Source: Argopecten irradians (Eukaryota > Mollusca > Bivalvia > Pectinida > Pectinidae). From it: a stretch of 64,000 bases of DNA. Below, piece by piece: positions 941 to 49,300 of this stretch (within the stretch, counting starts at the first letter, position 1; every line of letters begins with the position of its first letter). A program made the translations under genes and the position numbers. Location: contig NC_091137.1 in NCBI RefSeq assembly GCF_041381155.1, positions 20,071,655 to 20,135,654 on the forward strand. Direction: 5' to 3'. The notes beneath the pieces are model-generated. The model was given only the letters and a program-made list of their open reading frames with translations. It searched no databases and had not been told where the DNA came from.

Positions 941-1450
941 TATCGCCCGTACCGCATTATTGATTTATTACATAGCTATAATGGAACATTTAAAATCATC
1001 TGAAAGTAAAACAAAATGAAGGAAAAGTGAAATGCAGCATAACCTTGTCCTACAGCATCTGAATCCCACACCCTGAAATGAATCCTGCAACAACTAGGTG
1101 TGTTCAGGTGATAATGATGGCCTTTAGCTATATTCCAAGATTGTTTAGGATTAGACTTCTACTTTTTGAGAAAAAGAACTATGTATAGTTTAGCATCACT
1201 AAGTTTCACAGTCTCTGAATCCCACACCCTGAAATGAATCATGCAACAATTAGGTGTGTTGAGGTGATAATGATGTCATTTAGCTATGTTTAAAGTTTGG
1301 TTAGGAATAGATTTATAGTTTTTGAGAAACAGAGCTAAACACAAAACCTGAAAGTCAAGTATTATAAATAGTTTAGCATCCCTAAGTTTCCGCTGTAGAG
1401 AATATTAACACCATAGTATCACCTTCGTGAATTAGTGTCGCAGGCGATAC
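941..1450. repeat. Dispersed TIR element, about 510 bp, copy 1
   Basis: It starts with TATCGCCCGTACCGCA and ends with CAGGCGATAC, giving a short inverted match at the ends. Inside, a segment with 'CTGAATCCCACACCCTGAAATG' style text occurs twice as a degenerate direct repeat. A second copy with the same ends and internal order lies at 32905-33410. No coding capacity is visible, so it is probably a non-autonomous DNA element. Confidence 0.6.
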
Positions 1451-2059
1451 AAAAACACCCACCTTATATAGTGATATGACCTTTGCTAAACTTTAATCAT
1501 AAAATTTGAATGGATACTAGTTTCAAAGAGCTTGAGCATTTTATTGTTTTTAATTCTTTACATTTTATCAGCAATGACCATTAACTGTTAAAGGTGTCTG
1601 CTATTGGCCTAAGGCATGGAAGAGCGAGATGGTGCACTACCGGTAACCTTTCTAAGAGTGCTTGAGGAAATCTGATTCCAAGATATGTCTGAAGTTTCTA
1701 GACAGCAAATGGGGAAAAGAAGAAATATGATTCAGAAAAAAAAAATCTCCAGACCAGATTTACTGTATGAAGAAGTTGTTGGATGTGAATTTAGGCTTGT
1801 GATTGACAGGGGTATGAAATCAATATTATGGTAAACTTTTTCTTTCCAGTAAAGGCAGGCATGTCTCTACAAATTATACAGCAAATTTGACAAATTTCAC
1901 TGCAGTTCTCCATGGAACAATATGTATGACTCACAACATCAGTTTATATAAGTGTGGGAGAGGAATAGTGTCGATAACCTCTATCAATGTCAGCATATAT
2001 AAATGTGATACAGTAATACCAAAACTTTATTATTGCAAGCCCCATCCTGTACAATTTAA

Positions 2060-2365
2060 CAAAGAGAGATATAGATGGTCGCCCTAATAAAAAAATTATC
2101 CCAAAGAGCTAGATGTTGGAAACAACCAATATTCCCCTTAAAACTAATAATCCTAAATAGATATTGGAACCAATCAAACTTCCCCTTAAAACAATATATA
2201 CAAAAGAGATATATGAACAAAGTAATCTTGTTTTTACAACAATTTTTCCCAAACAGATACTGGCACCAACCAACCTTGTCCTTAGAAAAGTTTATCTAAA
2301 AGAGATATTGGAATCTATCATCCTTGCCCTTACAACAGTTTATCCAGCAGAAATAAGTGTTAAAA
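2060..2365 (+). repeat. Degenerate minisatellite, unit about 48 bp
   Basis: AGATATTGGAACC-like blocks recur near 2106, 2158, 2206, 2255 and 2302, each followed by a CCTTGCCCTTAAAACA-like block. Open frames crossing it are translations of the repeat. Confidence 0.55.
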
Positions 2366-2760
2366 TGAAATATGTCTCCCATGATAAGATGCCTCACTAT
2401 ATATATAGACCCTATTTGTTCTATTTACAATGGATTTATTCCCTTCCCCTAGGGAGCTTTAAGTGACAAGGAGTCTTGACCTTTAAGTAGAATCCTTAAG
2501 CTGCCAAAAACATACGGTACCTCCCCTTTTCCATGTGTTTATTGATAAAATAATCAATATAAAATTCTGGTGGAAAAAGGACACGAGTGCCAACTCTTTA
2601 CTCACAATAATAAGGAAACCTTTCCAAAAGTTTTTATCATGTCTAGATATTTACTCTTTAGGTGTACTAATGCACTGAATCACACAACTGAACTTAATGG
2701 GCAGTAAGCATCATCTATAAGCTGTAAGCTCATGCAATGCGTACAAATCGACAAAAGATA

Positions 2761-2885
2761 CCGTATTTTCCGGACAATAAACCGCACCTGTGTATAAGCC
2801 GCAGAGGCCTTTTTTACGATTTTTCAGGTTTTGTACACGTATAAGACGCACCGTTATATAAGCCGCACCCAAAAGTTAGGACCAT
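2761..2885. repeat. CCGTATTTTCCGG-ended element, one end
   Basis: The sequence starts CCGTATTTTCCGG directly after TA and carries two 'TATAAGCCGCA' blocks, a signature shared with the element at 41129-41580. The opposite end was not located, so the length is unknown. Confidence 0.45.
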
Positions 2886-5600
2886 GCACCCACGTAACCA
2901 TCTGTGTATACGATCGATCTCTATTGAAGTACGGTAATGCTTATCAATCGTTTAGAATCACGAAAACTGTCTGTAAACGTGTACTGTAAATATATAACAA
3001 ATAAAACTCACTATGATGTAAATATCTTTAGCAAAATGGACTTGGTCATGTTTCTGTTCGTTGTTTATTCTGCCATTACGTAAGCCTACTTGTGTGTAAA
3101 CAAACATGGCGGCCGTACGATTTCACGCTTACTCTCTCTCATATTTCAGCATGCCGGTTAAAATACTTTCTTCAGTATGCATATGATTTTATTTTATCTC
3201 TATTTTGATACATTTCGTGTATTTATTATATTGATGTGTAAAGGATTACTGTATTATCAAGGCTTGCATCATTAACCTAAAACTGACTTCGTTTAGAGTG
3301 TTCTCTGTCAAGTTGCCATCCCATGATGCAATTCACCGAAGCCTTATTTTTGAAAACTTCTGGATATTATTTCGTGGTGTTTGCCGCTACAGAGATCGAT
3401 TAAATGATTTTAATATGACTGTGCAATGTTTTACACTTGGTGTAATTTTCTAAATTACACGTGATTGACATGTATAAACTTGATTGCTGATTATTTCAAT
3501 AAAATCACGGCGACAGGATTCCGGGAAATTCCCCTCTTGATCGACATATGTGTAGGCCCTAACTAACACGTGTGCAAGTTTGAGGTCATGCTTACTCTCG
3601 CTCATATTTCAGTACGCCGGTAAAATACTTTCTTCAGTAACGTTATGCATAGGAATGGATTATATTCTTATGCATACCTCAAAAGATTTTTACCCAGTAA
3701 ATGTATTTGAGAACTGGCAGGAAAATATTCAGGAATCATACAGTACTCTCAATTGAAATATCATACAATTACAGTTTATTTTCAAAAAGAGTTCCAAATT
3801 TGGTAGCATAATGTTAAACACCCTCGCAGTCCACAGTCAGATCCTAAGCTGTAAATATCCTGATATCATTGCTGTAACCATGATATAATTATACAGATAC
3901 CTGGTATCAATGAATAAAAGCATTGTGTTACCCAACAGCCGTACAACTCATAATAGACATTAACTGAAATAAATTGAGAAATATCTGAATTTCGATTACA
4001 GTCATTTCCTCCATAATTCAAGGTCAGACTATGAGCAATGACGAATTAACAGCACGCGGTGGCAGCGTTACAGCGATTTCTGGCTGCTAACTTTTGCATC
4101 ACTGCCCAAATGAGATATGCTACACACATTGAACATTATTCAATATCAGTGAAATTCGGTCTGCATACTCTAGTACCGCTATTGATTCCGGTGCTATAAA
4201 CGATCAAAAAACAGCTGAATTTACCCGACACCCAAAACGATCCGAAAACAGCATAATTAACCTGACACCCAAAACCAAGAGATCTGAACCAGGAAACAAT
4301 CCGTACACATCACCAACATGTGGATACCCAAGTGGAATCACTTGATGTGTTCAGACATTTTAATAACGACAGCTAGCTCTACAAAGAGAATAACAAACAT
4401 GGCTTAGCCGTCAGAAAGAATACCACAAATCCAAACACCTTCCAAGTGGATAAACAAATGTTTTTATCAGTACTTAATTTACACTAAAGTAACAAGGAAA
4501 TATCTTTTATAAAAATGTTCACTATAAGGATAAAAGAATGAAAAACATGTCTATAAACAAGGTTTTAGTTACACTCGGGAATGTTGAGTTAAACAAATTT
4601 TAACATATGAAGCTTTTGTTTGTTGTGTTGTGTTATGTCAAACTAAAAACCTTTTATCAAACTTTTCTAATCTCATTCTATACCAAGTTTGTGATTGTAG
4701 AAATATAAGCTGTAATAAGACAGAATGACTTGCAAATTTTATTTGCTATGTCTAAGATTGCAGATGGTATATATTTGTAAACAAATAAAGATCAGATTAC
4801 ACATGAGGAAACCACAGGGACCAAAGGCATTATTGACCTTTCACTTAAGGATGTATTCTTACATATACAAACTTCTAAAAAAAAAAATACAAAAATTTGA
4901 AATATGTTTGCAGAGAATTGAAATTGAACACCAATATATGTATAACAAAACTTTGTTTTAACTATGGAGTTGTTGACACCCTGCTGGCTGTCCATGTGGT
5001 TGAACCTAACCCATCATGTGATGGTTCAGGCTGAAATCTGTTTCCCATAAACACTTAATCTAACTGTAATTGATATGACGGTCTGTTTTAGATATGAACC
5101 TGTACTCAGATCACCAGTGGTAAATGTGGGTTTTTTTCTAGGGAGGGAGATCAATTTCACAAAAATGAGTTTTAAAATTTTATGAAGATGTGGAGTCATG
5201 CAAACTTAAGATCTCAATAACCTAAGCCTACAGAAGGGTTTCATTCCTGATTTACATGTGAAGTCTAAAGTGGATATAGTGGAAAATCTTAGGACAGATA
5301 TAATACAGAATTTATCCCACAAATATTCCATACTTTGATAATAATGAATGACAAAATCACAATTGTGAGATTCTGTTTATCACATAACTCTTTGCAGGAA
5401 TAAGATAGGCACAAACTCTTTAATTTATTTCTACATAGAAGAGCAAGTAAATGTTTAATCAATCAAAAAAAAATCAAAAATTTAATGTCATCAATTTATC
5501 ACATGCAACTTATAAGATTATCAATATAACAGTATTGTTACATATATATCCATGCCATGGCCAGCAATATTTATGACAAGTATTGAAAATGTCCTAATGA
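2886..5600. other. Non-coding stretch with one direct repeat
   Basis: No gene is recognised. A 50-bp segment, GCTTACTCTC.CTCATATTTCAG through ACTTTCTTCAGTA, occurs at about 3127-3178 and again at 3590-3640, which suggests an internal duplication of an old repeat. Open frames near 4725-4995 have no recognisable motif. Confidence 0.45.
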
Positions 5601-5602
5601 AA

Positions 5603-5790
5603 TGAGGCCGTGTCAAAATGGTTAAGGTGTTGACACAATTACTGATAGCCTTCCATCTGGGTCTCAAGGTTGAATCTCATGTGGAGCAGTTGCCAGGTGC
5701 TGAGTGAGTTTAGGGCAGTGATTTTTCTCTGGGTACTCCAGCGTTACTCTTCCTAATTTATTCACCTGGCAAATCCTTAAATACCCTCGC
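5603..5790 (+). mobile_element. tRNA-derived SINE with conserved 3' block
   Basis: A pol III A-box-like AATGGTTAAGGTG near 5616 and a B-box-like AAGGTTGAATCTC near 5665 form a tRNA-like head. The downstream TTTTTCTCTGGGTACTCC near 5730 resembles the conserved central domain found in widespread metazoan SINEs. No poly-A tail or target duplication was resolved. Confidence 0.65.
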
Positions 5791-6294
5791 TATTCATAAA
5801 CCAATAAATCTTGTGAAATCATAAAACAGATTATTATAATAAAATCAAACAAGATTAAATCAGATTATAGCATCACAAGTGTAGTATTTCAGCTGGAATA
5901 GCATGTGTAATCTACTAAAGTTCTCATTCCAACCTGAACTCTGAACAATGATCCAATAGGTTTAACACTATACGGACTTGAATGTCTTGCTGGACATAAA
6001 CTCACACCTCCAGCATGTCACCAAGTATTCATTAGATTGTTATACCATCACAAACACTTCAAGCTCATAAAGTACAGCTTTAATGATGACGAGAACACAG
6101 GATGCCATACAATGGCACAGAATATCACCATGTAAGAACATATACTTTCCAGGCTGTAAAGCATTAACACGTACATTACACAGGAACTTTGAGAGGTAAA
6201 AATGTTGTCGAGGTTATTATTAGAGAAACACACATTTCCAAGGAACACCTACAAGGACAGACATTTCTTATGAAAGAATAAAAGAATTGTGATA

Positions 6295-6620
6295 GACATT
6301 GCCAATAAAGTTACTGGTTTGGAAGCAACCATTGCCAATAAAAGAACTGACTTTTAGAAACTGACATTGCCAATAAAGAAACTGACATTGCCAATTAAGG
6401 AACTGATTTGTAAACACAGACATTGTCAGTTAAGGAACTGATTTGTAAACACAGACATTGTCAGTTAAGGAACTAAATTGGAAAAAGACATTTTGAAATA
6501 GGGAATTGCTTTGTAAACAAAGAAACAAAGGCACTGCTAATTAAGGAACGTATTGAAAATAAATATTGCCAATGAAGGAATTGTTTGGAAGCAAACATTG
6601 TCAAAAAGCAAACATTGTCA
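6295..6620 (+). repeat. Degenerate tandem repeat around ACATTGCCAATAAAG
   Basis: The block GACATTG(C/T)CA(A/G)T(A/T)AAG, followed by AACTG and often ATTTGTAAACACA, recurs about eight times with variable spacing. Two adjacent 42-bp copies at about 6406-6490 are nearly identical. It is non-coding. Confidence 0.6.
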
Positions 6621-6639
6621 AATGAGCTGGTGCAGTATA

Positions 6640-8745
6640 CTTTAATGGCTTGTTCTGACTTTAAATAAAGATTAATTGAACTTGAACTGGTTTTAATTCA
6701 AAACTAATCAACATCTGAATATACTGGTTAGCTTTAAGGGCAGAGTTTACCAAACATCTTGACTTTGGACAGCAATTCCAACAATTCATTAATGAACAAA
6801 CGAAATCCCTTTACAACCTAACAACTAATTAAAATTTTATTACCATACATCATGTTAATAACCTCAACTCTTTACATGGAAAAGATTATACTCAGAATCT
6901 GAACTTATACATTTACATTTGACTTCAGTTATATATTGCCATCTTTATCCATTATCAGCAAAAAGTTAATATATAGACTAATAAATAATTTATAAAGTGA
7001 CAGACACTCATTTTGAGCTGATACAGTAATTAGATGGGGGCAGACTGATAAATGTACTTTAATATCTATGTAGAGTGACAGTCGATTGTTTCAAGGTGCT
7101 ACACAATTATATGGCGGACACGCACGGCTGACTCGTAAATGCTGATATGGCAGTAAGTGGGTGTCTCAATCAGTTGTTCTAACATTACGACATCCCTCAA
7201 GGCACACCATCGCTTTATTGATTTACTAACAAATAAAACACAACATTTAGCTTACTTAGCTGCTGTAAATTTGTAATATTATTTGTGACTTCTATCACGA
7301 TAAAAGAGCAGGCATATTCGATAGGAGCAGAGCTAGCTTTGTTCTAAATACAAAATCTTTCGACTTCGCCTACAGCTCTAGAATACCGTACAAACAGGTC
7401 TAGAACTGTAGAGGCCAGATGTGTAATCACTGGCACCCCAACTCCCACCCCTTCAAGCTCCCTTTAACGTAAGAACAAAATATCTGCCGATATATATAAA
7501 TATATATACCTGGGCTACATGAGTCTCTTGAGGTTGAGTCATTGACATTTGAAATTTGGATAACAAAGATACAAAGCTATTTTGGTTATATGGAAAGTCA
7601 AATCTTTTTATACTTCCTACAAAATCCTTTATATGGTCAGGTAACTATCATCAATACCCAATTCAAAAACAAAATTCAATTAAAATTCAAAACAAACTAA
7701 TACACAGAGATGCATATTGACATATTATAACAAAAGACAAAGTGAGATGTACAAAGCATTTTATCTTCACAGATCTTTTTCAAAATCCTTTGACACCAAT
7801 AAGACCAAATACGGAAAAAAAATTGAACAAGGGCCTATCAGGTTTCCATTTTAAAGACAATATGCGGGTTTGTGACAAAATTTGAGAAGCCCCCCGCCCT
7901 CAGGCTTTATATTAGTAGTGATGTAATAGGACGGCTGTATGTAGTAATGTTTCGTCCACGGTTCTTTTATGGATCTGAGGTTCCGTGTTGGTTTACTTAT
8001 GATACAAATACGACTAAAACCGAAATACAAATTCAATAATTTTATTATAATTCAACAGATCTATATCCAAACAAATAACAAATATTTTGAGGCAACGAAA
8101 CAATTTACGGTGTTAATAAAAGCCACCCGTCCTTCCCGCTAGATATCATAAATTCATTTAACCTCTAGAACATACTTTTATACTTTAATACTACATGGCT
8201 ACAAGGCCTTATATCCAGCTATAGCTACCTAGGAAGTGACCCGGCCGACAATACCTTGTCTCAGTGCCAAAGTGACCGATACAGGCTACAACACGGTCTT
8301 TTATACCTGTATCGGTAACTTGAATGGTTTACGCCGCTGCATTATAACAAAAAGTGGTACTGTCCTGGTACCCGTATGTCGTAAACAATATGACAGCAGA
8401 CGAAATATTAATAATATTAACAACAAAATAATAACCAGTTATATACATAAATTAACCACTTCTGCCACAGTGATGCCTGTCAAATATCTTCACCCATATA
8501 TGGCCAGCTGATCCAAATATGGATCCAGCATCCTCTGGCAATGTCACCATGACAGGAATGAAGGATTGAGACTCTCTTGTCCTGAGTTATAATAGATAAG
8601 GTTAAGGTATGATAGCAGAATTATCATTTTAAGCATTGTTACTTCAATTTCCTTGAAATATGTGCAGTTTAATAGGTCATAATCAAAAATTGAATAAATA
8701 TGTAATTTTCAACAAAAGAAATAATAAATGTGCACTCCCTTCAAA
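6640..8745. other. No recognisable gene
   Basis: AT-rich sequence. Short open frames at 7851-8036 (minus) and 8236-8511 (plus) show no domain, no splice context I trust and no similarity I recognise, so I do not call them. Confidence 0.45.
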
Positions 8746-12249: not shown

Positions 12250-13130
12250 GGTACAGTGGTAATAACCTAACCTTTCACCTTGGTGGTCAGGTGGTACAGT
12301 GATACACTTCACCTTTCACCTTGGTGTGATACATTGGCAATACACTTCACTTTTCACCTTGATGTGATACATTGGCAATACACTTCACTTTTCACCTTGG
12401 TGTGGTACAGTGTTACACTTCACCTTTCACCTTGGTGTGGTACAGTGGCAATACACTTCACCTTTCACCTTGGTGTGATACATTGGCAATACACTTCACT
12501 TTTCACCTTGGTGTGATACATTGGCAATACACTTCACTTTTCACCTTGGTGTGGTACAGTGTTACACTTCACCTTTCACCTTGGTGTGGTACAGTGGCAA
12601 TACACTTCACCTTTCACCTTGGTGTGATACATTGGCAATACACTTCACTTTTCACCTTGGTGTGATACATTGGCAATACACTTACACTTCACTTTTCACC
12701 TTGGTGTGGTACAGTGGCAATACACTTCACCTTTCACCTTGGTGTGGTACAGTGGCAATACACTTCACCTTTCACCTTGGTGTGGTACAGTGGCAATACA
12801 CTTCACCTTTCACCTTGGTGTGGTAAATCCGGTGGTACAGTGGCAATACACTTCACTTTCACCTTGGTGTGGTACAGTGGCAATACACTTCACTTTTCAC
12901 CTTGGTGTGGTACAGTGGCAATACACTTCACTTTTCACCTTGGTGTGGTACAGTGGCAATACACTTCACTTTTCACCTTGGTGTGGTACAGTGGCAATAC
13001 ACTTCACTTTTCACCATGGTGTGGTACAGTGGCAATACACTCACTTTCACCACCTTGGTGTGTGTACATTGGCAATATAATTCACTTTTCACTTTTCACC
13101 TTGGTGTGGTACAGTGGCAATACATTTCAT
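12250..13130 (+). repeat. 38-bp minisatellite with a 149-bp higher-order unit
   Basis: About 23 copies of a 38-bp unit (core CTTGGTGTGGTACAGTGGCA then ATACACTTCACTTTTCAC). Between about 12357 and 12665 the monomers are ordered as four variants, one shortened to 35 bp, so the array repeats every 149 bp. The right part has reverted to simple 38-mers. Overlapping open frames here are repeat translations. Confidence 0.95.
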
Positions 13131-15347: not shown

Positions 15348-16509
15348 TGTAACCCTACAGAGGTAGGCAGGCTAGTAGCCTTGCTTAAGCCCCAATGATA
15401 TTATTGGTGATAGACGATTGTAACCCTATAGAGATAGACAGGCTAGTAGCCCTGCTTAAGTCCCCATGAATATCATTAATAGATATGATATTTGAATATT
15501 CCCGCTAGGTAAACAGGAAGTGGGGTACCTGTTGAACCTTGACAGAAGTTGTTATGTTAGCCGTGTATAATTGTGGATCGCGGGGCTGAGTTAAATTATA
15601 GTGTATTTTATAAGAGTACAAGTATTAGTTATTTAATAACAACCATGTATATATTTATTAGGCTGTGTTTAATTTCATAGTGCATTATTGTGGTGTATAT
15701 AGTGTTGCTTAGACCTAGTATTGATGTGTAGTATATTTAAAGGTCAGTAACGCGGGATTGTTTACTCATGTTTGCAGCCAGAGTTAGGTTGTTGTTTTAA
15801 GGCATGGCCAAACTGGGTGACCGAAATATCAGTAAATTGTTACGGCACCTACTTTGTAGCGACTACGTGGGATGTTCTGGAAAGTATGGCAGGACATCGC
15901 ACGGTCTATGCACGTGTTAAACTAGGTGACCAACTTATTAATTAATTGTTACCGAATAGGTATGGGTATGGTAGGGACTACGTGGAATGTTCTGGAAGGG
16001 ATGACAGGACATCGCGTAGTCCACACACCTGTTTAACTGCGCAGTATAGTTTGTGCAAAATGTGCATATTACAGGCGGTTCTGTCCAGCCTCAACCAAGT
16101 CCAGTCAGAAAATCAAAACATTTCTATTTTGTTAAGCCTGCATCAGGCGCCGGTAAGGCTGTATTCTGAATTAAAATTAGTAAATTTTGACAGTTTATGA
16201 TGAGCTGGGTAACCTTTGGGGCAAGCATTGTCCCAACGGCACGTGTACCAGTCACGTACCCAATCATTATAAATAGAGGGCCGCAATAGGCCCCAGTCAG
16301 ACTGAAATTAGACGGACATCAGACGGGAATAAGACTGAGACTGGGTACTTCCGCCTCACATACACCTACGTCACCGCCTCCTCTAGGGCCACCTTTGAGA
16401 GAGAGAGAAAGTGAGAACTCTTGTCTACACTTTGAATAAAAGCCGTCAACAAGCTTCTACCCTACTCCTTGTCGTCATTTCGACCAACACAGCCATCCAT
16501 AGGGCGACA
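15348..16509 (+). repeat. 5' LTR (1162 bp)
   Basis: It begins TGTAACCC and ends GGGCGACA. A TATA box (TATAAATA, 16268-16275) and a polyadenylation signal (AATAAA, 16435-16440) mark U3 and R. The first 71 bp are a tandem duplication: the TGTAACCCTA(C/T)AGAG start recurs at about 15419. It lacks the insertions found in the 3' copy. Confidence 0.93.
16268..16275 (+). promoter_or_regulatory. LTR TATA box
   Basis: TATAAATA in U3, about 165 bp upstream of the AATAAA signal. Transcription would start near 16295-16305. Confidence 0.6.
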
Positions 16510-26275: not shown

Positions 26276-26824
26276 TGTAACCCTACAGAGGTAGGCAGGC
26301 TAGTAGCCTTGCTTAAGCCCCAATGATATTATTGGTGATAGACGATTGTAACCCTATAGAGATAGACAGGCTAGTAGCCCTGCTTAAGTCCCCATGGATA
26401 TCATTAATAGATATGATATTTGAATATTCCCGCTAGGTAAACAGGAAGTGGGGTACCTGTTGAACCTTGACAGAAGTTGTTATGTTAGCCGTGTATAATT
26501 GTGGATCGCGGGGCTGAGTTAAATTATAGTGTATTTTATAAGAGTACAAGTATTAGTTATTTAATAACAACCATGTATATATTTATTAGGCTGTGTTTAA
26601 TTTCATAGTGCATTATTGTGGTGTATATAGTGTTGCTTAGACCTAGTATTGATGTGTAGTATATTTAAAGGTCAGTAACGCGGGATTGTTTACTCATGTT
26701 TGCAGCCAGAGTTAGGTTGTTGTTTTAAGGCATGGCCAACCTGGGTGACCGAAATATCAGTAAATTGTTACGGCACCTACTTTGTAGCGACTACGTGGGA
26801 TGTTCTGGAAAGCATGGCAGGACA

Positions 26825-32600: not shown

Positions 32601-35600
32601 CAATTACCTGTATAGGTGTTGGGCTGGTATAAATACAGTTCTGGTGAAGGATCTGCATTGGTTGAATGAGTGATTGTGGTCCTATGGCCCAGCCTAGCTT
32701 CCATCCTGTACAGCTAAACGTCTTTCCTCCGCTGCCAATAGTAACAGTTCTCTCCCACATTCCTGGCAGGGATGCTAAAGCAGAACAAAGGTTATTAGGT
32801 TTTCACAAATAGTAACAATTCTCTCCCACATTCCTGGCAGGATGCTAAAGGAAAAACACACAGGTGAACTTTAATTCTATACAAGAATTACATGTTATTA
32901 TAAGTATCGCCCGTACCGCATTGTTGATTTATTACATAACTATAATGGAATATTTAAAGACTTCTGAGAAAAAGAGCAAAAAAATAAAGTTAAACATCAA
33001 AAAGTTTCACAGCCTATGAATCCCACACCCTGAAATCAATCCTGCAATAAATGAGGTGGTTGAGGTAATAATGATATCCCTAAGCTGTTTTTTAAGTTTG
33101 GTTAGGATTGGATTTATATTTTTGAGAAACAAAGCTAAACGCAAAACTTTAAAGTCAAGTCTTTAATAGTCTTCAATAGTTTGGCATCCTTAAGTTTCAC
33201 AGCTATGCATCCCACAGCCTGAAATGAATCCTGCAATTATTCGGTGTGTTGATGTGATAACGACGTCCTTCAGCTATGTTTAAAGTATGGTTAAGATTTG
33301 ACTTAAACTTTTTGAGAAACATAGCTAAATGCAAAACTTTAGAGTGAAATGTTGATGACAATGCCGCTGCCGGAAAAATAACACCATAGTATCACCGTTG
33401 CGAGTGATACAAAAACTGTAAAATGAATTCTATTGATAGATCATACCATAAGAAAAACAGATATCACAGATTGTTTGAGTGAAATGTAGCTCATTGATGT
33501 GTTTACACATCTCCTATCAACAGCTTTGCTTACTTAAGCTGGGACAATGTTACATAAACTCAGGACATCTTCTACGGACTAGTTGCATAATGCTCTTAAA
33601 TTGTTTTACCATTGTCAACAAACTTTTGTAGACAATTATTGGCAACAGACTTTTGCAGACAAGCCGTCACTGAAACACATCATGATAAAGAAATGTAGCA
33701 GTTGAAAGAATTGTTGGTAAATAAAATGATATAATCTGTGCTAAGATAGAGACTGGACTGACTGATAGGTATACATATATACTCACCAATCTTTACATGT
33801 TTACAGTTGTCATAGGTGAGCCATTCGTACACCTCATCAGCTATACATATAACATCATGTTTTATACAAAGGTCGGCAATCACCTGGAGCTCATCCTCCT
33901 TGAAAACCTACACAAAAGATAAAGATCATTATTCATCAAATCACTAAACTTTACAATGTAGGGTTACTCTAATAAGATAAAGGTTACCGTGAGGTCATCG
34001 CAAGGTAAACTGACTTATATTTAAATACAATTCACCATAAGGCCAACACCAACTAAATTACGGTAAAACTTCACATTATAGGCTGACCATTTACTGGTGG
34101 CTTTTGTTACTGCTACTGATAGTATTTATCTTAATACAAGCACCTCGTAGTTGACACTTACCTTGCCGATTGGGTTGTTTGGGTTGTTGATGATGATGGC
34201 CTTTGTTTTACTGTTGAATGCCTTGGCCAGTTCTTCAGGATCAAGTTTCCAGTCTGCACTGGACATGGCACCAGTTTTTGTCTAAAATACACAAGTATTG
34301 GACATCATATCCAAATTGCTGTTATCTATATATACACTAGCCTGTGTTAGAGATATACAAACATTGACATCACCATCTGTTTACAGATACTACTTACTGG
34401 TCTAATGGGTACAAATACAGGTGTCGCTCCAGCTACCATAGACATCGGTTCATAACAGTCAAAGTAGGGTTCAACGATGATAACCTGTAGATAATGATTA
34501 TACATTAACCATTTAGTTAAACACAAAAATCTTGTTGGATAAATAACTTTTCTATACTTTTTGTAGGTAGAAATAAGACATTTTGCTCATAAACACATGA
34601 CTTACTCATAATATGGACAGATATATGTAAATAGAGAAAGTCACTGTGTTAGTATCATATTGGTAGTACTCACCTCATCCCCTGGGTTCACCAAACCTTG
34701 GACAGCACAGAAGAGCACACCATACGCTCCTACACAGACAGTGATGTCTGTCAATGGGTTAATCTCGTGTTTCATGATTGGGCCGTACAGCTTAGACAGA
34801 ACATTAACCAGTCGCGGGTGACCCTATTACATAAAATTACAGACGGTTAGATACAACACATTTCCTGTAGTCTTTTAAAACATAACATAGAAAATAAAAA
34901 CTATTTAAGCTATGAAGAGAGCCCCCATATTACTTTTAAAATACTCCACTTATGTACTGTGTTTGTATACCTAATATGTTACTACAGGCATACATTGCAT
35001 GCTTCAAACAATTGCATTTACACAGGAAACGATTGTCACTCAGCCATTACCTATCTGTGTGGTGGTACTTTTTATACATCAATGATTTATTCTTATTAGG
35101 GCTCATCAGCAGTGACACTCTACTATCCATTTTTGGACACCTCAATAATATATACTTTCCGATTATGTTCACTCATGAACCAAAGTCTACATAACACATT
35201 ACTACATCCTTTTCCCAGAAACCTTCCATCCTTATAAAATTGTGTCTAAAATAAGTAACTGTATCGCAGTACTGAAACTTTTCATTCACGATATTTTTGA
35301 CAATTATTTCACAATTATTTATAAGTATGTTATTACTATGCTGTTAGTTTATATACTTACATAACTACGGGCATACTGTTTGTATACTTACATAACTACG
35401 GGCATACTGTTTGTATACTTACATAACTACGGGCATACTGTTTGTATACTTACATAACTATGGGCATACTGTTTGTATACTTACATAACTACGGGCATAC
35501 TGTTTGTATACTTACATAACTACAGACATACTGTTTGTATACTTACATAACTACGGGCATACTGTTTGCAAACTTACATAACTACGGGCATACTGTTTGT

Positions 35601-38600
35601 ATACTTACATAACTACGGGCATACTGTTTGTATACTTACATAACTACGGGCATACTGTTTGTATACTTACATAACTAAGGGCATACTGTTTGTATACTTA
35701 CATAACTACGGGCATACTGTTTGTATACTTACATAACTAGGGGCATACTGTTTGTATACTTACATAACTACGGGCATACTGTGCTAGTAAGGCATCTTCT
35801 GAGTTAACAGCTTTTACCATCTCATCAATAACATGTTGTGGAGGTTTGAAATCGGGAAATCCCTGTAAAACATCAATTTTACCAGTACACTGTCTATGGT
35901 GGAGACTACCTTCTTTATATCGTGCTTTTGTTTTATGTGTAAAGTTGATATGTAAAAAGGTGAAAATGCTGTAGTTGTAACACATGACTTTTATTACATC
36001 TGGCTGGAGTTCATTCAACTTAAGATAATTTATGAAAAGGCCAAGACCATGTGAGTTTACAAAGGATATCAGCTCACAAGACATTATTTTGAATGTACAT
36101 GTTGTAGTACGATTCATTTACCTCACTCGACCCAATAAGTGTTCCCTCTCCTTTTCAAGGCTACAAGTGTATACTTCCATGGACCTAGAATTTCAGTCTT
36201 TACTAAATGCAAACTAATAATATGCATACAAAGTTTTTTTAATGCATTTCTTTTGCATATTGATTTGTAGCTTTCTGCAATAATCTTAGTATTAAAAGGT
36301 CTTAATCTGGTCCCATAAATCATCCTCTCAACATTCTTATTTTTTATAAAAAAGTGCCCCTTGCACTAACTGCCAAATACAGTACTGAACCCAAAAAATG
36401 ATGAGTATTCTTACCTGACCAAGATTCAATGCCTGATGTTCTTTGGCTAACTTTCCAAACTCAACCCTGTCAATGCAACCAGCAGTCAATTTCATCATAC
36501 GTACATAATAAAACACAAACAAGAGGCCAAGAGGGCCTGTATCGCTCACCTGGTTTGTAATGTCAAGTCATGTTCTGAATACAGGTTCATTGTTTCTTTT
36601 CTGAAGGAATTTGAATATTTAACTCTTATTTCCTTTTTGGGCCCCGCCCCTCCTGCCCCCGGGGGGTCAGAGCCAAAATTTATACAAGTTCTGTTCCCCT
36701 TCTCCAAGGATATTTGTGGCCAAATTTGGTTACAATCCATGCAGAACTCTAAGACAAGTAGCGATTTATAGGATTTACCTCTATTTTCCCTATTGGGCCC
36801 TGCCCCTCCTGCCCACAGGGGGTCAGAGCCAAAATTTATACAAGGTCTTTCCCCCTTCCCCCAAGGATGTTTGTGGCCAAATTTGGTTACAATCCATGCA
36901 GAACTCTAAGACAAGTAGCGATTTATAGGATTAACCTCTATTTCCCCTATTGGGCTCCGCCCCTCCTGCCCACAGGGGGTCAGAGCCAAAGTTTATACAA
37001 GCTCTTTCCCCCTTCCCCCAAGGATGTTTGTGACCAAATTTGGTTACAATCCATGCAGAACTCCAGGACAAGTAGCGATTTATAGGATTTACCTCTATTT
37101 CCCCTATTGGGCCCCGCCCTCCTGCCCCTGGGGGGTCAGAGCCAAAATTTATACAAGGTCTTTCCCCTTCCCCCAAGGATGTTTGTGGCCAAATTTGGTT
37201 ACAATCCATGCAGAACTCTAGGACAAGTAGCGATTTATAGGATTTACCACTATTTCCCCTATTGGGCCCCGCCCCTCCTGCCCCCAGGGGGTCAGAGCCA
37301 AAATTTATACAAGCTCTTTCCCCCTTCCCCCAAGGATGTTTGTGGCCAAATTTGGTTACATTCCATGCAGAACTCCAGGACAAGTAGCGATACATAGGAT
37401 TTACCTCTATTTCCCCTATTGGGCCCCGCCTCTCCTGCCCCCGGGGGGTCAGAGCCAAAATTTATACAAGTTCCTTCCCCCTTCCCCCAAGGATGTTTGT
37501 GGCCAAATTTGGTTACATTCCATGCAGAACTCCAGGACAAGTAGCGATACATAGGATTTACCTCTATTTCCCCTATTGGGCCCCGCCTCTCCTGCCCCCG
37601 GGGGGTCAGAGCCAAAATTTATACAAGTTCTGTTCCCCTTCCCCCAAGGATGTTTGTGGCCAAATTTGGTTACAATCCATGCAGAACTCTATGACTAGTA
37701 GCGATTTTTAAAGGAAATGTTGACGGACGGACGGACGACGGACGACAGACACTGCGCCATGACATAAGCTCACCGGCCTTTCAGGCCAGGTGAGCTAATA
37801 AAAATACAAACAAGATAACCCAAATCTTGGCATGAATCATAACACAGATAGATGTAGCCTTTAGTTACTTTCTAGATTAATTTGATAAAATTTGGAAAGT
37901 TATTTTAAAAAGAAATCACCAAAAATATGGGTGTTACAAGATACCAAAACGACATGGGTATAGAACAGTGTTCTCCCTTAAGGATTTTGTCCTGCTGGTC
38001 CTATGGACCAGCTGACCCCTAGCAGTTGAAGTCCTGGCTAAAAGTTACAGATCTATTACAAAGTTACATTAAATTTTAATTTCTTGCAGTTTATATGATT
38101 ACTAGCAAATTAATAGTTTGAGTACTAGTTTCACTAACATCTTTATCCGTCATATCTGGATTACTTATCGTAGACTTTCAACAAAGTTGATTGAAAAACC
38201 AAAAATAGTACGAAAAGTTTTGTTTTCATAACTAGTTTTGACCTTCAAGATTTCTACAATATTACTGAACATTTTGTTTTGTATATCCTTTATCTGGACT
38301 CCAAACGATTACCGGCCAAATGGACCACAGCTACATGGGAAAAAATTGTCTGCCCAACACAAAAAAGTTGCCAGTCACAGGCGACGAGACAGGGCGGTTT
38401 ATTTTTGAACACTGGTAAAGAACAATTTACAGTCAAATAGTCCACCTTCCGGTGATTATGATGTTACAAAAAGCACATCAACAGATGATGTCCACAAGTA
38501 CCAGTAGGTGGGACTAATTGACAAATATTGTACTTTGCCCACGTCAATTTAAGATCTCGAAACCGTATTTTAGAGAAAGTTCATGTTTTTACTTTATCGT

Positions 38601-40372: not shown

Positions 40373-43300
40373 CTGAAACAAAATATAAAGGTTACTACAA
40401 TTGTAGAATAGAATTATATACTTATAATTCTCTCAGAGTGGATATCACTGTCCTTGTTATAATGACCAGCCACAATAAGGGAATAACCATCCTCGATACT
40501 CCAGGGGGTTTACGATCACTTACGATCTCTATCACCCCCTGGACCTATATCATAGAAAAACTGGAAGGCAACAATAACAGAAAGTAAATTTACGTCGTCT
40601 TGAAGGTACATCAAAAGAGCGCGTATATCGGGAACACTGTGATACTGTGTGGACTTTGAAGTTTAGCCTTCACTCACTCTGTAGTCTTCAAAGGATCTTT
40701 ACTGGTATGTGATTAGGTCAAAATGTTTTTTCCGCTGAGTCTGCCTTCAATTTCCAACTATGAGATAGTCCAGGGGGTGTAGGAGAATCAGAAAGTGAAT
40801 CAGGAACCCCTGGGAGTATGCGGAGGATGGGGGAATAATGACTGCTGTTTAGTGAAATTTTTGATACTGTAAAATTTTGCGATTTACAATATGGACCTTG
40901 ATTCATTGGGGTTTATTTTCACAAATTCTTTGATAGAACTTTGAAAGTGTTCAATTACTTGAGTGACTGGGAATGTGTAAAATCATGATTTTTGATAAAG
41001 TTTCAAATGGTACAAAATTTCGCCAATTTGTATAATCCGCAAAATTTAGCCAAATCAAAACAACTGTGAATATTTCCAACTACATGTACCTGTGAGATGT
41101 ATAGTAAGTACTGAAAAATATATTAGTACCGTATTTTGACGTTTTAGTTTTATTATTTTTCCTTGGTAACAATCCTGCAGCAAATCGATAGCGAAATCAG
41201 TCCGCCATTTTTTGTTGTGACTGGAAACAACCACGCTTCAGGTCGGACGATTTTGTTTTTCCGTGAATTAAACAATTTTTTAACGAATGAACATGCATCT
41301 GTATACGTAATTATTTTTTCATCTTTTATATATTTTCATTGCATATTTTATCTTTTAAACACTTTTACAGTGATTTGGTCGATGTAAACTTAACATAAAC
41401 TGGCGAGTAAAACTAACTGTTTTCACATGTGAAATCACGACGTTAAACAATGCAAAATGCATCGTCAGAATTTTGGTTTTTCGTCCAATGAATAAGCCGC
41501 ATTGTGTATAAGCCGCAACTAATTAAAACCCGATTTCAGGGAAACAAGTCACGGCTTATACTTTTCCGCTGAAAATTCGGTATAGATGTACTAACCTTCC
41601 CTCTGGGAAAACTTGGTGTTACTTTCAGACCACTGTTCTCCTGATTGGCTATAAAAGAATCCACGAATAAAAATAAAGGTTATCATATCTTTTATTTCAT
41701 TTCCATCTCTAATGGTCATCTAAATATTTTTTAAAGATTATCTATTATTACGTCCGGATTTGAATTCACTTCCACAACATTCAACCTATCATGGTTCATA
41801 CAGACTTTGAGTCTGGAGACAAAGAAAAAATAAAATGAATTAAGTTCCTTCTTGTTGAGTGGACTAAAAGTTTTAATACAGACTTAGCCTGAAAACATTC
41901 CAGGAAGACTACACACGAAATCAATTATTACACATTGAAATCTATCATCTAATTTTATGTTAACACCAGTTCTCTGTTTATTGCTGTTTTACACAGCGAT
42001 GTGTAAAAAATTGAATATAGTGCTAAATTAGATATTATCGGTAAGAAAGTTTTATAATCACACTCTGAAGCCTTGATCAGCAATCATTCCAGAATATTTT
42101 TCTATTACCTCTGGCTTGAAGAGATACTGCCAGCTCACTCCCCAGGAATCCTCCTCCAATAACAGCTATGGACTTGGCAGATTTACTCAGAGCGTAAAGC
42201 TTCTTAAAGTCATCAACCTGTAAATAAACAGATTCAGTTGTATTCCAAGGTTCAACAGCAACAAGAAACAGAACATGTACCATATTTGACCCAATATGTG
42301 CCCAGGGTTCTTAAAATGAAAATTAAGAGGGGCTTAATTGTAGCAAATTTGAGTGAGGTTTTCATAAAATTACCGCACTAAATAAAAGCCACAAATCAAT
42401 TTTCAATGAAAATTAAGAAAATAACTCTACTCAGTGTTCATATTTTTCGTCTGCATTAAGTTCAAAGTTTGTGAAATTGAGGCTTTTTTGGGTAGAATAC
42501 GATAATCGTGTTTAAATTCATGTAGATCAGCATGAATGTATTTTAACATAGGAAGATAACTTCAGATATGCATGCTTATAATTCACATGGAATTTTACAA
42601 TTATATATTTAAGTTGATTTGAACAGAACTTCATATCAAATAATCATTAATTAGAACAACTATTTAACTCACCGTTCTAAATACTGTCACTCGATCCTTA
42701 ACTTCCTTTGGTGCTTCTTTAAATATAGGTAGATTTCTAGGTTCACCACCTTAAAAAGAAGAATATAGGTGTGATATAAAATTTTAAAGATGTTCCACCG
42801 CCGCCAACAGAGCAGGGATCAAACCCCACCGAACAAGAGGCCCAGGAGGGGCCTTGTATCGCTCACCTGGTTTTGTAATCGCCCAAGTTAATGTTCCTGA
42901 AAACAGGTTCATTGATTTCTTTCTTCTCGAAGAGAATTTGAATATTTACCTTCTAATTTCCCTATTGGGCCCCACCCCTACCTATTCCCCCCAGGGGGTC
43001 AGAGCCAACAGTTTTATACAAGTTCTTGTTCCCCTTCCCCCAAGGATGTTTGTGGCCAAATTGGTTACAATCCATGCAGAACTCTAGGACAAGTAGCGAT
43101 TTATAGGATTTACCTCTATTTCCCCTATTGGGGGGGGCCCCGCCCCTCCCTGCCCCCCCGGGGGGTCAGAGCCAAAATTTATACAAGTTCTGTTCCCCTT
43201 CCCCCAAGGATGTTTTGTGCCCAAATTTGGTTACAATCCATGCAGAAACTCTAGGACAAGTAGCGATAAAAAAAATTTTATAGATTTACCTCTATTTCCC

Positions 43301-46300
43301 CTATTGGGCCCCCGCCCCTCCTGGTCCCCCAGGGGGTCAGAGCCAAACTTTATACAAGTTCTGTTTCCCCTTCCCCCAAGGATGTTTGTGGCCAAATTTG
43401 TTGTTACAATCCATGCAGAACTCTAAGGACAAGTAGCGATTTATAGGATTTACCTCTAATTTCCCCTATGTGGGGTGCCCCCCGCCCCTCCCTGCCCCCC
43501 GGGGGGTCAGAAGCCAAACTTTATACAAGTTCTGTTTCTCCCTTCCCCCAAGGATGTTTGTGGCCAATTTTGGTTACTATCCATGCAGAACTCTAGGACA
43601 AGTAGCGATTAATAGGATTTACACCTCTATTTCCCCTATTAGGCCCCGCCCCTCATGCCCCCTGCCGGGGTCAGAGCAGAGCCTAGACTTTTATACAAGT
43701 TCTGTTTCCCCCTACACCCCCAAAAGGATGTTTGTGGCCACATTTGGATTACAATTCCATGCAGAACTCTAGGACAAGTAGCGATATTAATAGGGATTAA
43801 TTACCTCTAATTCCCCTATTGGAGGGGGCCCCCCCGCCCCTCCCTGCTCCCCGGGGGTCAGAGCCAAAATTACAGAGTCTTTATACAAGTTCTGTTTCCC
43901 CTTTCCCCAAGGATTTTGTGGCCAAATTTGGTTACAATCCATGCAGAACTCTAAGACAAGTAGCGATTTATAGGATATTTACCCTCTATTTCCCTTGATT
44001 GGGGGGCCCTGCCCCTCCTCCCTAAGGGGGTCAAGAGCCAAAATTTAATACAAGTCTCTGTTCTCCCTTCCCCCAAGGATGTTTGTGACCAAATTTGGTT
44101 ACAATCCATGCCAGAACTCTAGGACAAGTAGCGATTTATAGATTTACCTCTATTTCCCCTATTGGGCCCTCCACCCCCGCCCCTACCTGCCCCCCAAGGG
44201 GGTCAGAGCCGAAATCCTATTTATACAAGTTCTGTTACCTTTCCCCCAAGGATGTTTTTTGTGGCCAAATTTGGTCAATACAACCCCGATGCAGAACTCA
44301 TATGACAAAGTAGCGATTTATAGGATTTAACCTCTATTTTGGGCCCCCCCCCTGGGTGGGGGTGTATGGGGGTTGGGGGGTGGCCCCCTCCCTCCCCCCT
44401 CTCGCCCCACCCTCCTGCCGCCCCCCGGTCCCCCCGGGGGGGTCAGAGGAGCCAAATTATAAATACAAGTTAAGTTTCTGTTTCTCCCTTCCTCCTACCC
44501 CAATAGGATGTTTTTTGTGGCCAAATTTGGTTAACAATCCCATGCAGAACCTCTAGGACAAGTAGCGATTTATTAGGATTTTACCTCTATTTCCCCTATT
44601 GGCCCCACCCCCCGCCCCTCATCTGCCCCCCGGGGGTCAGAGCCAAAATTACAACTTCAATATCAAAACAATTCTGTTCCCCTCCTAACCCCCAAGGATG
44701 TTTGTTGGCCAAATTTGGGATGTTACAATCCTGCCGAAGACTCTAAGACAAGTAGCGATTTATAGGATTTTACCTCTATTATCCCCTATTGGGTCCCCGT
44801 CCCCTGTACGCACCTCCTGCCCCCAGGGGTCAGAACCAAACCTTTTATACAAGTTCTGTTCCCCTTCCCCCAAGGATGTCTTTGTCGGCCAAAATTTCTG
44901 TTACATTCTCATGTCAGAACTCTATGACAAGTAGCGATTTATAGGATTTTTAACCTCTATTTCCCCTATTGCGGGATTCGGCCCCGCCCCCTCCTGTCCC
45001 CCGGGGGTCAGAGCCAAATTTAGACAACAACAAGTTCTGTTCCCCTTCCCCCAAGGATGTTTATGTGGCCAAATTTGGTTACAATCCATTCAGAACTCTA
45101 TGACAAGTAGCGATTTAAAGGATTTACCTCTATTTCCCGCTATTGGGCCCCCACCCCCTCCTGCCCCGAGGGGACCAGAGCCAAATGTTTATACAGTGCT
45201 GTTCTTGATCCCCTTCCCCCAAGGATGTTTGTGGCCAAATTTTGGTTACAGTTCCATGCAGAACTCTAAGACAAGTAGCGATTTAAAAGGTATATTACCA
45301 CCTCTAATTCTTTCCCCCTATTGGATCCTCGCCGCCCGCCAGCCCCCGCGGGGTCAGAGCCAAAATGTATACAAGATCTGATCCCCCTCCCCGAAGGATG
45401 TTTTGTGGCCAAATTTGTTACAGATCCATGCAGAACTCTAGACTAATAGCGATTTAAAGGATTTACCCTCTATTTCCCATATGGAGGGCCCCACCCCTGC
45501 CTTGCCCCCAGGGGTCAGAGGCCATAATTTATATACAAGGTCTGCTCCCGCTTCCCCCAAGGATTTTGTGGCCAAAGTTTTGGTTACAATCCATGCAGAA
45601 CTCTAGACAAGTACGTTTATAGGATTTACCTCTATTCCCATATTCGGGGTGGGGGGCGGACCCCCGCCCCTCCTGCCCCCGGGGGGGGTCAGAAGCCAAA
45701 ATTTATCAATTTCCTGCTTCGCCCCTCTCCCCAACCCCTCCGCCCCAAGGATGTTTTGGCCAAATTTGGTTACAATCCAATAGCAATCTCTATGACTATA
45801 GCGATTCTAGATTTACCTCTATTTCCCAGATTGGTCCCCGCCCCTCCCTGCCCCCAGGGGGTCAGAACCAAAAATTGATAACAAAGTCTGACTCCCCCTC
45901 CCCCAAGGATGTTTTGGGCCAAATTTGGTTACAATCCATGCAAACTCTAGGACTAGTAGCGATTTAAAGGAAAATGTTGACGACGAATACGACGGACGCC
46001 GCGGACATAAGCTCCACCGCCCCTTCGGGCCCATGAGCTAAAAAAATAATAGATGAAAAGTAAGTCAGTTACAAAAACTGTCAATTTTTAGTTCCAATGG
46101 GGAATTTTTAATCTTCAGGGGAATTTTAGGCCAGAGGGGGATTTTCATCTTTGAGGGGAAATTTACCCATAAAATGGTAATAAATCAGAGCTAGAGGATC
46201 CCTGCAGAGCATAAAACAATACTCATTTCATTGAACAAGAATGGCCATTTAATGGTTTACAATGATATAAAAAAATATGTCTATTTAACACATAAAAAAT

Positions 46301-49300
46301 ATATATAAAACCTATTTATTTAGCTATTGGTGCATGCGCAATCAGTACTTCATTCATATAGGACATAGGGCCATGGAATAATTTCAGGACAAAATTAATT
46401 ATTTTTAATATTTTTATCTTTAAGTGAAATTTTAATAGAAGCCCAAACTTTTCAATGGTGGTAATGGTGTAAAGTAATTAATTTTGGTGACTGAAGAAAA
46501 ATACTAATTCGTCTGCTCCTGTTTTTGATAGAGAAAATATACCAGCGGTAGAGCATCTTTATATGAGTTATCTCCCCTCAATTATAAATTATTGTTTAAA
46601 ATTGATTCCATTTAATTTACCATCAAATTTCGTATAAACTTGAATATCAAGTATCGAGGATGATTTGTTCCTCACATACCTACCTGTTGCTATAAGACAT
46701 TTTCCAAAGCTTATTTCTTTTCCACACTCCAAATATACTTTCTTTTTATCTGCATCCAACTTTGTTACCTGAAATCGGAATAAAATAAATGCAATCAAGC
46801 GAAGAATACATATTAGAATTACAGCCTTCAGAAAAAAAACATCTGCTCACGCCCATTTGGAGCTATTAAATGGTCTTGTGCAGGAATTTCTCCCATAGCT
46901 TATTTTCTAAAATCGACAGTCCATGGATATTAACTATTTTGTCTTGGAGTCAAAGGGTTTTGTACATTGAAGAATCCTATTCTGAAACATTTCTTTAATC
47001 ACTTTAATAGTTAACAGCACATTTTTCTTTTTCTTTTTAAAAGTTTTGTCCAAGGCATATCTTACTTAACAGATATCAGACGGAGTCAATTTAGTGTATG
47101 GTGGATAATTTTTTTAGTTTCACTATTGTTATGCAAAAGTGCTAATATTGCATATTAAAAGAGAAATTGATGTACTGCAATAATGAAACTCTGTGATTAT
47201 GTTTTGATAATGAAACACTTATTAAAAATATGCGCCACACAAGTTTAAACTGCTATACAGTATCTAAGTTAGTATAACTAAGACTAAAATACTATACTTA
47301 CCTTTTGCCCTCCTATCACACAAACACCTCCATTTTCATTCTCAGCCAGCTCCTTGCCAGAGAAGTAATAGCTCTCAGACTCGTAGAAGATACTACAATG
47401 CAACATCATCACATAACTCTGACGTAGAGTTATCAAACACAACTATGACATTAAAGTAATACTAATCCAATATCTGTGTCATAGGTTTATCAAACACAAA
47501 GACAGATGTCTGCAGGTTTACAATGTACATAATTTTATTTGATATTTTTTATTGTTACCTAGACATATATATATACTGGTCCCGTTTTTGGTTTAGGTAA
47601 GTTACACTAAAGGGCTTGATATTTAAATTCTAATGTAATAACATCTTAGGGTTAGAAATGGGATTTCTCTGATAAAGTTGTCTCCCCTTCCCCCATTAAT
47701 TCATTATCCAATGATTTTTTTGAACATGGACGTGTTGAATGGTCTATTATAATAAGAAAGCATACCTGGAACACACCATAACATTCATGCAATATTAACC
47801 GTTTTTAGGATATGTAATAAACATCTTGGCCCTAAAGTATGTTATAAATACCTCTTTGGCTCTACAGGTGATCCTGTTCTGTCCACTTCTTGATCTTAAA
47901 TATATATATTGGGCTATTATAGTGCGAGGTTACACAGGTATTTAGACAGATCCGGCCGGTCTGTAGGGTTATGTAATTGTCCTTTCCAATGATCACCACT
48001 GCAAAATCCCCCACCCCCACACAAATACTTGAAAATAGTACGTAAACAAGATTTAACCTACTGCCAAAAAACAACTACCACTTTTATGAGACCATGGTAA
48101 ACCAGTGTTACAGGAATATCTTTCCTTGGTAACCTTTTTTGAAGGCTTATCACATGTATAATTACAGATTTACCCATATCGGTTACAACAATTGACAGTA
48201 TTGATCCAATTGCTAATGCGTTTATGGCAAAACTGTAAGCCATTTTTCTTTTCTTTTCCAAAACATGTCAAAAGTCTGGTAAGCTGCCCAAATTTTGACT
48301 ATGTCTATAGACCTTAGCTGTGGGGTCTCTGATTTTGACTATGTCTTTACCTTTGCTGTGAGGTCTCTGACTTGGCCTGTGGGGGTCTTTGACTATGTTT
48401 ACCTTTGCTGTGGGTCTCTGACCTTTGCTGTGGGGTTTGACTATAAGCTTATCTTTGCTGTGGGGTCTCTGACTTTGACTATGTTTACCTTTGCTGTGGG
48501 GTCTCTGATTTGACTATGTATACCTTTGCTGTGGGTCTCTGATTTGACTAAGTTACCTTTGCTGTGGGTCTCTGATTTGACTAAGTATACCTTTGCTGTG
48601 GGGTCTCTGACTAGAGTACATGTATCTGACATATATGGGACAAGATTATAAGTTAATGATTTCAATGATATTCATGTGTCACTTTCTTATTTGGTATACA
48701 TATATTTCAAATTATCACTTTTGATTTGAACGAAAATGATTTATGTCTAAACATCTGTTTTCACCAAATCAACTAAAATTCAGTCCATTACAGAGATATA
48801 TACCCATATTTCATCAAATACAGTAATTTAGCCGGTGTACATACCCTATCTAACGGTAGGGTAACCACACTTACATTTCAGAATTGGTTGCCTCCCTTTC
48901 CATGAGATTTCATGGTGGTGTTTTTTTCTAGTAAAATACATACACATGGTGTTTGTCACTGAACTCTAATCTTTATTTTAAGGTACTTTAACATCATTCA
49001 AAACTTTACCAAGTATTACAGTAGTGTAAATTATCTCAAAGAATAGCTACCTTTGACTGCTCCCTTCTTGGTTGATAAGTCAGACCAAGAATTTTTAGTA
49101 TAAATTATCTGTTGAAAAAAAGAAAAAGAAAGTAATTTATTTCAAGTAAAACAACATTTTAAGATCATTAAACAAGAAATACATGTATTCTCATCACCAA
49201 TATACATGTAATGTAATAGTTTTTTAAAGTCTCCAGTAATATTCAGAACTGCAAGTCTGAATCCATATATGGTAAAGGAAATAACATAGATTGCAATAAA

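Follow-up and report, generated by a model that had tools for sequence, protein, structure and literature searches.

How can an exon-intron junction be copied many times over into its own intron without harm to the gene? This question is raised by a kynurenine aminotransferase (KYAT) gene of the scallop Argopecten irradians, which we analyzed within a window of 64,000 nucleotides (assembly GCF_041381155.1, contig NC_091137.1, positions 20,071,655 to 20,135,654 of the forward strand). On the minus strand of this window, the end of a KYAT coding exon and its donor site form the first unit of a tandem array that extends into the following intron. We consider it likely that this array is a "mirage" minisatellite, of a kind reported in lancelets, that has no function and is tolerated because exon definition selects the donor closest to the exon.

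An earlier note, made from the letters of the sequence, had proposed that the exon end and its 5' splice site constitute the first of 14 units of 31 bp. Tandem Repeats Finder (TRF), run on the window, reported a 31-bp array at 35347-35782 with 14.1 copies and 96% matches, and splitting the sequence in register bore the proposal out. The 14 units, with the consensus TATGCCCGTAGTTAT up to the junction and GTAAGTATACAAACAG beyond it, occupy 35345-35778, and this corrects the limits first given (35352-35780). From 35778 down to 35345, the units match their consensus at 31, 30, 31, 30, 31, 31, 29, 31, 29, 31, 30, 31, 31, and 28 of 31 positions. Eight (units 1, 3, 5, 6, 8, 10, 12, and 13) are thus identical to it and the other six carry one to three changed bases; the 31 bp that follow unit 14 match at 9 positions. 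GTAAGT is present in every unit, as expected from the 13 spare donors that had been counted. Donor 1 lies at 35758-35763, its first base being 35763, and the spare donors (35355-35732) follow in 31-bp steps, with first bases at 35732, 35701, 35670, 35639, 35608, 35577, 35546, 35515, 35484, 35453, 35422, 35391, and 35360. The exon itself (35764-35862, 99 nt) contributes its last 15-19 nt to unit 1: compared with the exon-like part of unit 2, its end is alike over 19 nt back from the donor, with 18 identical. The intron that receives the array (34824-35763) measures 940 nt, and the intron upstream of the exon (35863-36414) 552 nt. A degenerate lone unit also lies in the array intron at 34960-34993, with a score reached by 2 of 2000 shuffles. 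It is perhaps a relic of earlier growth or decay, left over from an array that was longer or is older.

Reading frames and protein alignment show which of these donors can yield KYAT. Joining donor 1 to the next exon (34674-34823) gave a gapless alignment to solved kynurenine aminotransferases (best E value 9.5e-37), and the resulting protein is 90% identical to the KYAT of the scallop Mizuhopecten yessoensis (P0001). Among the 11 KYAT homologues that were aligned, from scallop to lancelet (11 of the 120 listed from 7260 hits), none has an insertion at the join, QYxRSY/GHPRLV, where the slash marks the splice junction. Donors 2-14 all read through the TAG in unit 2; donors 4, 7, 10, and 13 regain the KYAT frame, yet downstream of TAGs. 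Donor 1 is thus, as had been claimed, the only one that preserves the frame. Such stops suggest an explanation in which the spare donors tune KYAT: use of donors 2-14 would add a TAG-containing stretch and lead to nonsense-mediated decay, and the length of the array would set the share of transcripts lost. Indeed, the TAG is met from 13 of 13 spare donors, and with eight units identical, local sequence alone cannot mark or favor donor 1. The other arrays of this genome, described below, bear on this explanation as well.

The origin of the array was traced by searching the whole genome (845.8 Mb, in which the window lies on contig C4) for the 31-bp unit with at most three mismatches. All 25 matches fell at two copies of KYAT, and the reversed control returned none. 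Since the unit was found only at KYAT and its near copy at this threshold, the array grew in place; unit 1 is the end of a conserved coding exon, and the proposed birth from an exon-intron junction agrees with both observations. It could be imagined that a dispersed satellite or mobile repeat hit the junction by chance, given that other GTAAGT arrays are 66-72% identical by BLAST and that this genome is rich in minisatellites (37 arrays in 220 kb). However, the similar arrays have units of their own, in one case (PAWR, below) derived from the gene's own exon, and unit 1 encodes conserved KYAT residues. We regard a chance hit as extremely unlikely, and the locus-specific unit, with its 25 matches (up to three mismatches) all at KYAT, led us to reject a mobile satellite as the origin of this array.

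The second KYAT array (C4:20158867-20159269, locus L002) has 13 units as opposed to 14 in the window. KYAT and its surroundings are duplicated about 52 kb apart with 98% identity over 3.4 kb, and the two copies may stem from tandem duplication or be two haplotypes left uncollapsed in the assembly. Under either reading the length of the array differs between the copies, in line with the variable copy number that the earlier note had predicted. Two further repeats of this region also occur twice. A short array at 15588-15639 of the window recurs at 26516-26567, about 11 kb away, through tandem duplication or uncollapsed haplotypes. An array with a 38-bp consensus counts 21.6 copies at 12291-13129 of the window versus 45.6 at C4:20146913-20148638, beside the second KYAT copy, a gap in length that far exceeds that of the KYAT array.

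Donor arrays were also found at other genes. DNA similarity led to PAWR on contig C1, whose protein is 89% identical to its Pecten maximus counterpart: the exon ...DEDNPQTPSD/GTAAGTATAC opens into about 211 units of 30 bp, in an array that starts inside the exon and is in frame and open across its first four units. Near a match on contig C14, the RNF13 exon ...RRSTFDNS/GTAAGC is followed by about 36 units of 46 bp. A third case came from sampling blind to arrays, in which 15 stretches of 10 kb were taken (ten at round coordinates and five from a random list). One of these, L019, contains an exon of a neprilysin-like gene, LNGIQTQGENIADNGGLKEAYR/GTAAGT, for which neprilysin was the best match in the PDB (E value 4.7e-05). 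About 33 units of 45 bp follow, and the next exon begins AYSKW. The array takes up about 45% of the intron in KYAT, about 92% in PAWR and in RNF13, and about 60% in the neprilysin-like gene. Two more arrays were seen. One, at C14:8412746-8419935 on the strand opposite RNF13, repeats a 30-bp unit with GTAAGTATG about 236 times, and no exon was recognizable at its start. The other, on the minus strand at C1:66296001-66301382, has a 53-bp unit with GTG/GTAAGTGT in 102 copies; it reaches the edge of the stretch examined, and no clear exon was found.

Two of these genes are represented by transcript-like proteins, both of which skip the array units. The PAWR protein P0121, from a contig of 4373 nt, is identical to the exons at 416 of 418 residues and reads ...DNPQTPSD/DHRIPKGF, with no residues from the array. 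This contig is shorter than the 6.9-kb PAWR intron and therefore cannot contain it, and because the first four array units continue the frame without a stop, use of donor 2 would appear as VSIQPQTPSD. Similarly, the RNF13 protein P0241, from a contig of 2454 nt, shows complete identity to all nine stretches of exon that were found, which account for 399 of its 458 residues. It reads TFDNSG/LPETMRP, again with no array residues. Splicing at donor 1 thus occurs at both PAWR and RNF13.

The same proteins bear on the potential acceptor, ACAG/TATGCC, that had been noticed in each KYAT unit. The ACAG is indeed found at the end of 13 of the 14 units, but an acceptor context is not: by eye, no pyrimidine tract precedes it, and it lies 16 nt past the preceding donor. 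If it did act as an acceptor, the array could represent an early intron gain, in which an internal unit becomes a 15-nt micro-exon, ACAG/TATGCCCGTAGTTAT/GTAAGT, encoding Y-A-R-S-Y in frame. The unit does read AG, 15 nt, GT, with the 15 nt making up whole codons, and this route was proposed for mirages by the authors of the lancelet globin study (PMC3087553). Nonetheless, the AG lacks its pyrimidine tract, such an insert is absent from all 11 aligned KYAT homologues, and neither the PAWR nor the RNF13 protein contains one. We therefore rejected real acceptors within the units, and find intron gain extremely unlikely here.

If the spare donors were of use to the gene, their sequence should be better kept than the rest of the unit. 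We compared the donor with all circular 6-mers of the unit in six arrays, a subset of those found. In KYAT the donor ranked first of 31, albeit in the smallest array (14 units with 10 changes in total), whereas it ranked 13 of 30 in PAWR, 33 of 46 in RNF13, 7 of 45 in the neprilysin-like gene, 22 of 30 in the C14 array, and 48 of 53 in the 53-bp C1 array. Across the six arrays, then, donors show no consistent excess of conservation over the other unit positions, and we take the donor copies, from their sequence, to be under neutral turnover. The best-kept donor of KYAT speaks for splicing tuned through nonsense-mediated decay; the ranks elsewhere speak against it, as do the PAWR and RNF13 proteins that skip the array. 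Nor is the TAG general, the 30-bp units of PAWR being open over the first four. Lancelet mirages, moreover, are reported to leave splicing undisturbed (PMC3087553, PMC3902484). Overall, the suggestion that the array tunes splicing or feeds decay, which came with the earlier note, found no support, and we judge it improbable.

We scanned the whole genome for GTAAGT triplets spaced 24-40 bp apart and found 48,347 compared with 17,483 in the reversed control, a 2.8-fold excess; these counts include many matches per array. The first 100 triplet places listed all lie on contig C1, plus strand, up to 2.764 Mb, and belong to five separate arrays. Were this density of five per 2.76 Mb and strand typical, the genome would contain about 3,000 GTAAGT arrays (range about 1,000-7,000, given a count of five). 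At the upstream edges of these five, the first unit lies clearly within a coding exon in two, namely an ABC transporter gene, ABCB (E value 1.3e-9, queried jointly with the preceding exon), and a TRPM channel gene (E value 4.9e-8). It probably does so in a third, L036, where an open frame and one weak match (E value 0.18, the sole hit) suggest an ALG3-like coding exon; the remaining two, L035 and L037, gave no clear assignment.

A count made without regard to donors gives another view. It covered 220 kb, made up of the window, the 15 stretches of 10 kb, and the 6-kb L034 next to L019, in which 37 arrays were found including that of KYAT. The count kept arrays of at least 2.8 copies with units of 12-200 bp, took the higher-scoring one where arrays overlapped, and omitted that of KYAT. 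Among the 36 donor-blind arrays, GTAAGT occurs in 2 versus 1.4 expected. This sample alone therefore shows no enrichment, which rests on the triplet scan. These numbers also concern a reading in which the array acts in cis as a row of sites for the U1 small nuclear ribonucleoprotein, marking the exon or suppressing premature polyadenylation while splicing still proceeds at donor 1. In its favor, GTAAGTAT, whose eight bases are complementary to the 5' end of U1, is present in 13 of the 14 KYAT units, and the triplets exceed their control, although with arrays set aside, single GTAAGT is less frequent than TGAATG (67.5 versus 88.0 per 100 kb of the sequence sampled here). However, the birth of arrays at junctions suffices to explain such an enrichment, the donor-blind arrays show none, and conservation does not consistently favor the donor positions. 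A functional U1 row is, in our view, highly improbable.

The neutral mirage, tolerated through exon definition, accounts for these observations as follows. A 31-bp stretch over the exon-intron junction would have been duplicated in tandem, and the array would then have expanded and contracted via slippage or unequal exchange. The exon would be recognized as a unit across its length, so that among identical donors the one closest to the 3' splice site of the exon, presumably donor 1 in KYAT, wins. Later units would land within the intron and be removed with it. Each extra unit would also lengthen the intron and might thereby keep the exon in exon-definition mode, so that the array insulates itself. 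This selection of the exon-proximal donor has been reported by Carranza and colleagues: where donors are nearly equal and flanking introns long, the upstream donor is favored, and human minigenes in which two strong donors of identical sequence compete, with introns of 365 nt, use it exclusively (PMC9225289). The upstream KYAT intron, at 552 nt, exceeds the minigene introns. With 552 nt of intron on one side of the exon and 940 nt on the other, the cross-exon proximity rule predicts use of donor 1 in KYAT and harmless growth on the intron side.

Several points weigh against this account. No KYAT transcript-like protein from A. irradians was among the 120 listed of 7260 hits. The PAWR and RNF13 proteins carry the source tag "lgn", which we take to denote an assembly of public reads. 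Short-read assemblies are prone to breaks in repeated sequence and would miss rarer isoforms containing array units; P0121 and P0241 therefore do not demonstrate exclusive use of donor 1. The mean identity of the donor was higher than that of the other positions in three of the six arrays (KYAT, PAWR, and neprilysin-like) and lower in the other three, and single arrays may be subject to weak selection on donors. Finally, the exon-definition experiment was performed in human cells with two donors, and before the filter for equal strength was applied, the downstream donor was in the majority in all four intron classes (PMC9225289).

Exon definition might have consequences beyond KYAT. It is possible, though on balance somewhat short of probable, that donor arrays grow genome-wide in scallops in a self-insulating manner: duplication of the junction would be harmless, each added unit would lengthen the intron and strengthen exon definition, and the process would act as a ratchet by which thousands of junctions come to carry up to hundreds of donors, making it a main source of intron growth. 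If so, the genome would offer a large natural set of identical donors in competition, distinguished by position alone.

Other features of the window were recorded in passing. Arrays of GC-rich repeats of 157-178 bp (GGGCCCCGCCCCTCCTGCCCCC...) lie at 36617-37707 and 42944-45971, upstream of this part of KYAT; the repeat also occurs at C4:20160105-20161355 and looks like a dispersed family. On the minus strand at 48292-48610, units of about 33-36 bp with GCAAAG/GTAAAC or GTATAC perhaps form another donor-bearing array. An AIFM1-like reading frame lies nearby at 46592-46846.

How does the scallop array compare with known systems? Mirage minisatellites were described in lancelets at Adh3, troponin C, and the globins BflGb6 and BflGb9, with a similar case in PGBD5, and were suggested to be a general cephalochordate phenomenon (PMC3087553, PMC3902484). 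They, too, are tandem repeats over an exon-intron boundary with splice signals in many units (PMC3087553, PMC3902484), and their unit sizes range over 10-72 bp in Adh3 and about 150-160 bp in the globins (PMC3087553). The KYAT array matches this kind, unit 1 being a real exon edge and 31 bp a minisatellite size. Two haplotypes of BflGb6 have 6 and 3 units (PMC3087553); the KYAT copies, which may be paralogues or haplotypes, have 14 and 13. Splicing at mirages is reported to be undisturbed, and in the scallop, donor-1 joins are seen in the transcript-like proteins of PAWR and RNF13. The scallop differs in extent, with seven junctions (one weakly identified), about 211 donors at PAWR, and arrays that take up about 45-92% of four introns. 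Human genes in segmental duplications likewise contain internal tandem repeats that vary between copies; their units average about 30 bp, and some lie where exon meets intron. There, however, such repeats are reported to give rise to novel introns (PMC2812944), whereas the scallop retains an existing exon end. The Rogers model of intron gain also invokes tandem genomic duplication that copies splice-site sequence, yet there a duplication within an exon creates a new intron (PMC3443670), while in the scallop an existing donor is copied into an existing intron. Three further reports (PMC3862624, PMC12783039, and PMC4039745) describe other phenomena. A literature search of partial coverage retrieved no title describing exon-intron junction arrays in a mollusc. 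As far as these searches show, the kind is already known, and the host, the number of loci, and the size are new.

Taken alone, the KYAT array is most likely ordinary, a harmless unstable repeat. Its setting nevertheless offers a natural counterpart to the cross-exon proximity experiments. Both involve identical competing donors between long flanking introns, with the upstream donor expected to win, but choice among equal donors has so far been tested with two engineered sites in transfected cells (PMC9225289), whereas the scallop provides a natural series of 14 donors in KYAT, about 36 in RNF13, and about 211 in PAWR, with near-identical flanks, in which mainly order and distance vary. Such a series could extend the test of the proximity rule far past two sites. 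The lancelet mirage is now found outside chordates, which suggests a route of intron growth that is harmless to the gene.

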